DNA from: a bacterium
GTDB lineage: Bacteria; UBP18; UBA7526
Direction of reading: 5' to 3'
Assembly (NCBI GenBank): GCA_030619985.1
Contig: JAUXAI010000019.1
Coordinates: 1-18,050 of the forward strand
DNA: 18,050 nt
The notes below the pieces were generated by a model. That model ran no database searches. It was not told the origin of the DNA and saw only the letters and a list, made by a program, of their open reading frames with translations. This document shows positions 6,879-18,050 of the stretch, piece by piece. The position numbers and the translations under genes are program-made. Within the stretch, counting starts at the first letter, position 1. Each line of letters begins with the position of its first letter.

Positions 6879-7472
6879 ATGCGCATTGGGATCATGGGCG
6901 GGACCTTTAACCCCATCCACTACGGCCACCTGGTGACCGCAGAGGTGGTGAGGGATAAGTTCAAGCTGGACAAGGTGATCTTCATTCCCTCCTATCGCAC
7001 TCCCTATAAAGGGAGAAGAGACTTAATCTCTTCCTCTCATCGCTACAAGATGGCAAAATTAGCCATAGAGAATAATGGCTATTTTTCAGTATCCGATATT
7101 GAGATTAAGAGAAGGGGAAAGTCATACACCCGGGATACCATGAAAGAGTTTAAGGAAAAGTTTGGGAAAGAAACGAAACTCTTCTTTATCACCGGAGCGG
7201 ATGCCATCGGCCAGATGCCCAGATGGAAGGGGGCCAAGGAATTACCTCAATTATGTGAGTTCATCGCTGCCTCCCGACCGGGCTTTAAACTAAGAAAACT
7301 ACCCCCGAGATATGAGAGGCATACCCGCTTAATCGAGGTTCCTGCCTTGGCCATCTCATCCACAGATATCAGGAAGCGCCTAAAAAGAGGCGAGACCATA
7401 AAGTATCTTCTCCCAGAGAAGGTTGAGAGATATATCCACCAGCACCGGTTATATTTAAGCCTCGGAATTTAA
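6879..7472 (+). CDS. nadD: Nicotinate-nucleotide adenylyltransferase
   Basis: NadD joins nicotinate mononucleotide and ATP to form deamido-NAD in the NAD pathway. The 197-residue product is of family length and has the nucleotidyltransferase signature GGTFNPIHYGHL (7-18), SYTRDT (82-87), ITGADAIGQMPRWK (104-117) and the second nucleotide-binding motif ISSTDIR (159-165). GGAG (6870-6873) precedes ATG 6879. The obg-proB-proA-nadD order is common in bacteria; the usual follower rsfS is absent here and is replaced by a repeat-filled gap. The His of GHxGH-like signatures (His14, His17) is present. Confidence 0.96.
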   Translation: MRIGIMGGTFNPIHYGHLVTAEVVRDKFKLDKVIFIPSYRTPYKGRRDLISSSHRYKMAKLAIENNGYFSVSDIEIKRRGKSYTRDTMKEFKEKFGKETKLFFITGADAIGQMPRWKGAKELPQLCEFIAASRPGFKLRKLPPRYERHTRLIEVPALAISSTDIRKRLKRGETIKYLLPEKVERYIHQHRLYLSLGI

Positions 7473-7684
7473 ATAAGTGTAACAAAGGAAAAAGGGGAAG
7501 GGGGCTTAATTCCCAATTACCCATTCCTAATGAAATTCTTAATGTCCAATGCCAGAATACCAAAAGATTTTTGGAAATTTAGGATTTTTGGAAATTTAGG
7601 ATTTTTGAATTTATCTGTGATCATCTGCGCTTTAGAATCTGTGCTAATCTGTGAAGATCGCCGAATGAAGTGAGGCATATCTTG
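7473..7684. repeat. nadD downstream gap with 17-bp tandem repeat and palindrome
   Basis: GATTTTTGGAAATTTAG is repeated nearly three times at 7566-7613 (two perfect copies). ATCTGTG-type words follow (7613-7655). GCCGAATGAAGTGAGGC at 7660-7676 is a short palindrome also present at 10966-10982. Its TGAGG (7671-7675) is suitably placed to serve the next ATG. Confidence 0.65.
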
Positions 7685-8867: not shown

Positions 8868-8931
8868 GATATCCTGATTACCCGATATCCTGATTACCCG
8901 ATACCCTGATTACCCGATACCCTGATTAAAG
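8868..8931. repeat. 16-bp tandem repeat, four copies (GATATCCTGATTACCC)
   Basis: Units start at 8868, 8884, 8900 and 8916. The first two are identical, the third differs by one base (GATACC), and the fourth ends AAAG, merging into the AAAGGAG ribosome-binding site of the next gene. A small TTGCT-AAAT-AGCAA hairpin (about 8848-8861) precedes it. Related CCTGATA words occur at 2590-2690. Confidence 0.9.
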
Positions 8932-10566: not shown

Positions 10567-10741
10567 TATTTTTTATTTTGAAGCATCAGAACTTCAATGA
10601 AACCATGGATTTGACCGATTAGACGGATTTCTTTAAAAATATAATCCGTTAAATCCGTGCTACGAAGTGATCCCCTCGGGATAATCCGTGGTTCCAAAGA
10701 TAATCCGTGAAAATCTGCGCAATCTGTGGTTATTATTTTGC

Positions 10742-10770
10742 TTGACAAATGCCTTTTCTTATGATAAACT
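10742..10770 (+). promoter_or_regulatory. Sigma70 promoter upstream of the MerR/toxin-antitoxin unit
   Basis: TTGACA (10742-10747), a 17-base spacer and TAAACT (10765-10770), with TG upstream of the -10. It shares TTGACAAA and ATGATA-ACT with the promoters at 1913 and 17821. It points toward the MerR gene, whose ATG is 230 bases downstream; repeats including a CCCCGCACC hairpin lie between. Confidence 0.7.
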
Positions 10771-10800
10771 TAAAGTAGACTGTTAGTTCTAAGATTCTGG

Positions 10801-10833
10801 AGCATCGGAACTTCAATAGTTACACAGATGGGC
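10801..10833 (+). promoter_or_regulatory. Conserved leader element, copy 1
   Basis: A 28-nt core (10806-10833, CGGAACTTCAATAGTTACA plus nine more bases ending GATGGGC) matches 17890-17917 at 25 of 28 positions. Both copies lie about 36-41 bases after the -10 of a similar promoter. A shorter related copy, AGCATC-R-GAACTTCAAT, is at 10582-10598. Function is unknown. Confidence 0.55.
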
Positions 10834-10883
10834 CAAATTAAATCAGTGCTAATCCGTGTTCCAAATCTGTGCTAATCTGCTTG

Positions 10884-10958
10884 CCCCGCACCTTTTTAGC
10901 ATTCATAAAGGCATTATTTAAGTATTCAAGAAATTCTGAATATTTAAAAGGTGCGGGG
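10884..10958. repeat. CCCCGCACC hairpin repeat, copy B
   Basis: CCCCGCACCTTTT (10884-10896) and AAAAGGTGCGGGG (10946-10958) are perfectly complementary over 13 bp and enclose an AT-rich 49-base interior unrelated to copy A, in the manner of a miniature element with conserved ends. Confidence 0.75.
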
Positions 10959-10999
10959 TGAAATTGCCGAACGGAGTGAGGCTTATCTGGGAGGAGAAT

Positions 11000-11269
11000 A
11001 TGACTCGTGATGAGAGGTTGAAAAAGGGACTATTGAGGGTAGGGGAATTGGCAAAAAGAGCCGGCGTTCTATCCTCCACCATAAGGCACTATACCAATGT
11101 CGGCCTCCTATACCCGGCCTCTACCACTCCGGGTGGCCACCGCCTCTACGAGGAAGAAAAGAGCCTGGCCAGACTGAGGGAGATCAAGAAAATCAATAGC
11201 CAAAGGCCTTCCCTGGCCCAGATCAAGGAGAGGATAGACAGACAGTTCAACTCTGGAGAAAGAAAATGA
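11000..11269 (+). CDS. Short MerR-family transcriptional regulator
   Basis: This 89-residue protein is little more than a MerR winged-helix DNA-binding domain: LRVGELAKRAGVLSSTIRHY (12-31), VGLLYPAST (34-42), TPGGHRLYEEE (43-53) and a helix with LARLREIKKI (56-65), ending in a short QIKERIDRQF helix. No effector or metal-binding domain is present. ATG 11000 is chosen over upstream in-frame GTG because GGGAGGAG (10989-10996) lies directly before it and the extra upstream residues would be coded by repeats. Its stop overlaps the next ATG (ATGA, 11266-11269). Autoregulation of this unit is likely by analogy but not shown. Confidence 0.88.
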   Translation: MTRDERLKKGLLRVGELAKRAGVLSSTIRHYTNVGLLYPASTTPGGHRLYEEEKSLARLREIKKINSQRPSLAQIKERIDRQFNSGERK

Positions 11270-11526
11270 AAAAGAAAAATAAATCAATGTTGTTAAGAGA
11301 AAAAGGATCTGTTTATAAGATAAATAGAAATACAATTACCATTCCAGTAATTGAAAAAATTGTTGAAAAAGTTGTTAACAAGAAACTTCAGGAATTACTG
11401 AAAGATCCTGATTATGGTTTAAAATTGCGCAAGAAGTTCAAAGATAAATTAAATGCTATTATGAAACAGAAAAAAAAGATAATTCCTGAGGAAAAGATAC
11501 TAAAAAAGTATAGAGTCGAATTGTAG
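11266..11526 (+). CDS. Putative antitoxin of a type II toxin-antitoxin pair
   Basis: This 86-residue, very Lys-rich ORF precedes a RelE-type toxin by a one-base overlap (stop TAG 11524-11526, next start GTG 11526), the standard antitoxin-toxin order. I see no clear DNA-binding motif. The middle (VIEKIVEKVVNKKLQELLKD) predicts an amphipathic helix, and the C-terminal IIPEEKILKKYRVEL resembles the toxin-wrapping tails of RelB-like antitoxins. The gene is much richer in A+T than its neighbours, as is the toxin, which suggests acquisition. The call rests mainly on context. Confidence 0.65.
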   Translation: MKKKNKSMLLREKGSVYKINRNTITIPVIEKIVEKVVNKKLQELLKDPDYGLKLRKKFKDKLNAIMKQKKKIIPEEKILKKYRVEL

Positions 11527-11786
11527 TGTACAAGGTTAGATATCACTCAGAGGCAGACAAGGATTTAGAAAAGTTAGATGAGCTAATAAGAAAGAGAATC
11601 ATTGCGAAGGTACATTGGTTAGCAAAGAATGTTGAAAAACTGAGGCCTGAGATGCTTGGCGGTGGATATAAAGGACTATACAAATTAAGAATCGGTGACT
11701 GGCGAGTAATATATGAGATAAGGTATTCGCAAAAATTATTGGTTGTTTATACCGTTGGTCATGGAAAAGAAATTTATAGAAAATGA
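11526..11786 (+). CDS. RelE/ParE-superfamily toxin
   Basis: The 86-residue protein fits the RelE/ParE fold: N-terminal YKVRYHSEADKDLEKLD (2-18), helix to about 36, then the beta core GLYKLRIGDWRVIYEI (50-65) and the end VVYTVGHGKEIYRK (73-86). RelE toxins cut mRNA in the ribosomal A site, while ParE members poison gyrase. The GDWRVIYEI strand and GHxKEIY end favour the RelE side. Residue 80 is Gly where most relatives have Arg (GHRKEIY), which could weaken the nuclease. It starts with GTG overlapping the antitoxin stop, so it is translationally coupled. The A+T richness matches the antitoxin. Confidence 0.83.
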   Translation: MYKVRYHSEADKDLEKLDELIRKRIIAKVHWLAKNVEKLRPEMLGGGYKGLYKLRIGDWRVIYEIRYSQKLLVVYTVGHGKEIYRK

Positions 11787-17820: not shown

Positions 17821-17849
17821 TTGACAAAGCCATTTAGCTATGATATACT
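17821..17849 (+). promoter_or_regulatory. Sigma70 promoter pointing out of the window
   Basis: TTGACA (17821-17826), a 17-base spacer and TATACT (17844-17849), with TG for an extended -10. It lies 22 bases after the DUF2723 stop and reads toward a gene beyond the window. Immediately after it, TTTTAAAGT and ACTTTAAATTTT can pair into a hairpin (about 17853-17880). Confidence 0.75.
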
Positions 17850-17889
17850 AATTTTAAAGTGAACTGTCTACTTTAAATTTTAACAGTTT

Positions 17890-17917
17890 CGGAACTTGAA
17901 TAGTTACAGGGATGGGC
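17890..17917 (+). promoter_or_regulatory. Conserved leader element, copy 2
   Basis: The 28-nt core (CGGAACTTGAATAGTTACA plus nine bases ending GATGGGC) matches 10806-10833 at 25 of 28 positions and has nearly the same distance to its promoter (-35 to core 69 versus 64 bases). The interval between -10 and core is much less conserved. Confidence 0.55.
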
Positions 17918-17924
17918 ACAGATA

Positions 17925-18050
17925 ATTAAATGCAAAATGCAAAAATTAAAATGCAAAATGACAAATCAAAATGTAAAGTTTAAGAAACTTTTGAATTTTA
18001 GTATGTAACTTTAATTTTTAATATTTAATATTTGATTTTCATCTGCTAAT
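17925..18050. repeat. AT-rich imperfect hairpin element, copy 2
   Basis: AAAATGCAAAAATTAAAATG words are followed by the perfect inverted repeat AAGTTT-AAG-AAACTT and a T-rich arm with TTTAATTTTTAATATTTAAT, ending TTTGATTTTC. It has the same layout as 1559-1690 and runs to the window end. No gene start is visible. Confidence 0.6.

Follow-up and report, generated by a model that had tools for sequence, protein, structure and literature searches.

The window, i.e., the whole stretch of DNA that was analysed, is a complete contig (C10) of 18,050 nt from a bacterial genome of 1.25 Mb that is 84% complete. It was compared with five genomes of the same family and with 54 others that are related only at domain level. 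Two loci in the window combine a putative promoter, a leader and a core sequence, the latter at 10799-10833 (copy 1) and 17883-17917 (copy 2). The features concerned are listed below.

7456-7684, + strand: further copy of the dispersed element; a nadD-like open reading frame ends inside its left end, and its right end TATCTTG abuts the ATG of a DegT-type aminotransferase gene
10580-10600, + strand: degenerate solitary core (third core), followed by ATCCGTG repeats
10742-10770, + strand: putative merR1 promoter of the sigma-70 type (TTGACA, 17 nt, extended -10 TGATAAACT), aligning with that of copy 2 and kept in the sister species (G002)
10771-10798, + strand: first part of the merR1 leader, from promoter to element, with its homologue at 17850-17882 (9 of 2000 shuffles as good)
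10799-10990, + strand: type III element of 192 nt; its left end is the reported core (10799-10833), its right end is GAACGGAGTGAGGCTTATCTGG, and it has a nested inverted repeat (CCCCGCACC...GGTGCGGGG)
11000-11269, + strand: merR1, encoding a MerR-family regulator of 89 aa, downstream of copy 1 (Pfam MerR_1, 1e-11)
17821-17849, + strand: putative copy 2 promoter of the sigma-70 type (TTGACA, 17 nt, extended -10 TGATATACT), aligning with that of copy 1
17850-17882, + strand: copy 2 leader, between promoter and element, aligning with that of copy 1
17883-18050, + strand: left portion of a type III element in which an A+T-rich repeat is nested; it runs off the contig end, and its right end, followed by a second MerR gene, probably lies in contig C9

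Two promoter-bearing loci and their genes

The first-pass annotation had reported a near-consensus promoter with a core at two loci, and this likeness is real. The coordinates match, and local alignment against dinucleotide shuffles gave scores of 32.5 for the promoter (shuffle mean 12.3), 46 for the core (12.3) and 84.5 for the whole stretch (21.4), with 0 of 2000 shuffles as good in each case. Both promoters consist of TTGACA, a 17-nt spacer, a TG ahead of the -10 and TAAACT or TATACT, and are, judged from their sequence, ordinary strong sites of the sigma-70 type. The middle, which had been described as diverged, aligns too (TAAAGTrrACTGT...), more weakly than promoter and core, as 9 of 2000 shuffles were equally good. 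Since the spacer aligns along with promoter and core, the copies are homologous over their full length of approximately 92-97 nt, and the middle is no unrelated stretch between conserved flanks. The hairpin that had been proposed for the middle of copy 2 (TTTAAAGT...ACTTTAAA) is present there. The middle was folded only jointly with the core (66 nt), and this stretch did not exceed shuffles in stability (z = +0.15). The hairpin is conserved neither in copy 1 nor in the sister-species orthologue. Two further details of the annotation were confirmed. The promoter at 1913, upstream of a gene read by inspection as rplU, shares the first half only, as it has the same consensus and lacks the core, and the partial third core lies at 10580-10600.

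Copy 1 precedes merR1, which starts at the ATG at 11000, and in the sister species promoter, spacer, element and MerR gene are all kept. Directly after merR1, at 11266-11786, lie a small partner gene and a gene whose product is a toxin of the ParE type (Pfam 9.6e-15). Copy 2 runs into the end of the window. The final 131 nt there are identical, in reverse orientation, to the opening 131 nt of contig C9. Past this overlap, C9 contains the right half of the same element type and then a MerR gene that is 60% identical to merR1. The join of C10 and C9 is only probable, because contig C55 also opens with this repeat (96 nt) and continues to a P-loop protein, by inspection similar to adenylate kinases. 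Position 18050 thus probably continues into C9, which would place a second regulator gene, merR2, just beyond the contig end, and the pair of copies most likely represents a duplicated merR promoter and leader.

The A+T-rich repeat at 17920-18050 (AAATGCAAAATGCAAAAATTAAAATG...), which probably caused the contig break, is itself dispersed, with another copy at 1578-1686 and many partial copies in all six genomes of the family. A second observation concerns approximately 95 nt of the type III right half (GCTTGCCCCGCACC...GGTGCGGGGTGAAATTGCCGAACG, 10884-10980). This stretch is identical in copy 1, in the joined copy 2 and in the sister species, whereas the left leaders are only about 85% alike; the right half in C55 (L266) has a single deviating base. 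The identity could stem from recent insertion, from gene conversion or from selection.

The reading that we favour, and consider probable with some reserve, is that these are the leaders of paralogous merR genes (merR1 at 11000 and merR2, probably past the contig end). Each of the paralogous upstream regions would consist of a strong housekeeping promoter and a leader, into which a separate, short, non-autonomous dispersed element would have been inserted with the core as its left end. The merR duplication would have followed the insertion. The conserved promoter-core spacing would then be due to the shared descent of the two upstream regions, which presupposes the probable contig join. One alternative is that two elements were inserted independently behind convergent consensus promoters, so that the leaders have no common ancestry. 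Elements do follow other promoters, i.e., a strong one ahead of a tRNA-Thr gene (L073) and a weaker one (L077), promoter consensus sequences can converge, and the gene downstream of copy 2 is not merR2 if 18050 leads into C55. However, the spacer between promoter and element aligns as well, the probable downstream genes are close paralogues, and the right end of the element lies at a similar distance before the ATGs of both MerR genes, which makes independent insertion unlikely.

A dispersed element that begins at the core

The 28-nt core forms the left end of a dispersed element that is independent of, and separate from, the promoter. A 21-nt core pattern (GAAGCRTCGGAAYTTSAATAG) has 22 matches in the own genome with at most three mismatches (0 for the reversed-pattern control), and every one of the five relatives has 20-26 matches to a near-identical pattern (0-1 for the control). 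A promoter with at least 10 of 12 matching positions within 100 nt upstream was present at three of the 22 copies, compared to 0-1% of random stretches of the window. These three are both window copies and the one ahead of the tRNA-Thr gene. Among the BLAST matches listed for the six genomes, promoter plus short spacer is confined to the two copies and the orthologous sister-species site.

The first-pass annotation had treated promoter and leader as a single functional module, against which scattered cores without promoters would speak. Such scatter is what was found, as only three of 22 cores have a promoter. What stood of that reading is that the sites combine promoter and leader and that something mobile is involved. 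Its suggestion of a mobile promoter cassette, in which promoter and core move jointly, draws on the presence of both parts in both copies. Yet 19 of the 22 cores lack such a promoter, strong promoters also occur without a core, promoter and spacer are not dispersed among the BLAST matches listed, and the mobile part extends from the core in the downstream direction, which leads away from the promoter. Joint movement is therefore hardly credible.

Many core copies open elements that close in TATCTTG. Complete elements have the left end GAAGCATCGGAAYTTSAATAR, interchangeable hairpin-rich interiors and the right end TATCTTG, present as GTGAGGCCTATCTTG or AAGGGGATATCTTG, i.e., a Shine–Dalgarno-like GAGG or GGGG followed after 5-6 nt by TTG. 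Type I elements measure about 165 nt and have several predicted hairpins, in which, for six of the 42 predicted pairs, some sequences have both bases changed and can still pair. Type III, the type in the window, has an interior of inverted ATCCGTG repeats that is far more stable than shuffles (z -5.1). A third, short form of about 58 nt has different right ends, and a minimal form of 60 nt exists as well (L083). In the rplU-like leader downstream of the 1913 promoter, at 1945-2050, an apparent degenerate short-form element lies in antisense orientation (ACCTCCGATTTCATCGGAGAACC). Interiors are both exchanged and nested: compared with copy 1, the merR1 leader of the sister species has two extra inserts, and the interior of copy 2 carries the nested A+T-rich repeat.

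These features also bear on the idea of a small RNA or leader regulatory RNA, in which the core would act in the merR transcripts, e.g., by regulator binding or attenuation. The core would be transcribed if the promoters work, the copy 1 leader is somewhat more stable than shuffles (z -2.5), and the leader is kept in the sister species. On the other hand, the same core occurs at many unrelated genes, core plus spacer of copy 2 are no more stable than shuffles, and the interiors of orthologues differ by whole inserted repeats. Moreover, covariance models gave no Rfam match at gathering score, and so no known riboswitch, leader or sRNA family, in the window or in eight element loci. A regulatory function of the core in merR transcripts is thus very improbable.

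Mobility, host range and comparison with known repeats

Several junctions are occupied in some genomes and empty in others. The element at a site in contig C47 of the own genome is absent from G001, G003 and G005 (L181 versus L182-L184). G001 and G003 have no element at a junction that precedes an ABC-transporter gene (L078); an acyltransferase-like junction (L081) is empty in G001, G002, G004 and G005, and the leuD junction in G003. Manual comparison of occupied and empty sites indicates a target duplication of at most 0-1 nt, an approximate estimate, because the compared relatives are diverged (1-2 nt is possible). The homology of the copies, the dispersal, the empty sites, the orientation and the conserved ends are established by comparison. 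The element may be mobilized by a transposase acting in trans; a search of the own genome (84% complete) found no Y1 transposase (PF01797).

Type I is present in the own genome and four of the five family relatives and in none of the 54 more distant genomes, and type III in the own genome and four relatives. The exact type III core pattern occurs in three MAGs among 84,980 species genomes, a set that possibly leaves out the records of the own genome. No match was found for type I in phage records, for type III in plasmid records or for the core pattern in IMG/VR. The element family has so far been seen only in one family of uncultured bacteria.

In its behaviour, the element resembles BOX repeats and MITEs. 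Like the BOX elements of Streptococcus pneumoniae, which sometimes encode the stop codon of the upstream gene (PMC3049150), it is short, dispersed and mostly intergenic, with conserved left and right modules around variable interior modules. Unlike BOX, it occurs in another host, its sequence matched nothing in Rfam or the databases and is to that extent unrelated, its interiors are exchanged hairpins instead of tandem boxB units, and its right end bears a ribosome-site-like sequence and TTG. With bacterial MITEs such as RUP, Correia and ERIC (PMC2229807) it shares that it is non-autonomous, smaller than approximately 300 nt, hairpin-rich, intergenic, non-coding, dispersed, and present or absent between relatives, i.e., mobile. 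It differs from them in its weak terminal inverted repeats (AAG..TATC / GATATCTT), a target-site duplication not beyond 0-1 nt and ends without TA. No IS that shares these ends was encountered in the searches made. Hairpins near the ends (those of type I), a short GAAG-like head, insertion without target duplication and a fixed tail, TCTTG, after the right hairpin recall REP and IS200/IS605-derived elements (RAYT; PMC2817692), but there is no GTAG head, the interior is longer and composite, copies are few (about 22), and the Y1 transposase was not found in the own genome. Because no target duplication beyond 0-1 nt was seen and Y1 was not found in the own, incomplete genome, the element is filed neither under MITEs nor under IS200/IS605/REP.

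Placement at gene junctions

Complete elements lie at gene junctions in sense orientation. For 24 of 37 complete elements a sense gene start lies within -6 to +45 nt of the right end, compared to four in antisense; these counts are approximate, as they follow a simple ORF rule in which the terminal TTG of the element counts as a start where the frame is open, and as the 37 elements were gathered through searches and are not a sample. Often the stop codon of the upstream gene reaches 1-2 nt into the element (T|GA, TA|A), whose left end then completes it. Alternatively, the upstream frame terminates within the core and reads EASEFE-stop or a close variant. At the other end, the TTG could serve as start codon where the native start is displaced, and in C47 it occupies the place of an ATG in a relative. 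Translation may start from the ribosome site and TTG of the element.

The ends of the element look fitted to gene junctions. In many cases one gene would take its end signal, and the following gene its start signal, from the element. Tentatively, the element might be a portable intercistronic cassette, restricted to one family, that enters the stop/start junctions of operons by a single-strand type of movement and leaves no target duplication. It would come with a stop codon, a ribosome-binding site and a TTG start of its own, as a result of which insertion between genes would be nearly harmless. If this is true, it would show how small mobile DNA can persist in compact operons. As the element alters gene ends and start codons, it is also a hazard for gene annotation. 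The reported pair itself is mostly ordinary, probably duplicated regulator promoters that bear a repeat.

One type I element sits within a tRNA-Glu-like sequence and splits it (GTCTAGCCT|...|GTTAGG; L074 1501-1521, L126) beside an intact tRNA-Glu, and this site is also occupied in G001. With a T before the element and a G at its end, a self-splicing intron was considered. This reading was set aside because the other inspected junctions are flanked by two different genes and the tRNA-Glu-like copy looks degenerate. Elsewhere in the window, a 16-nt tandem repeat (GATATCCTGATTACCC) at 8868-8928 lies just upstream of an AAA ATPase gene.
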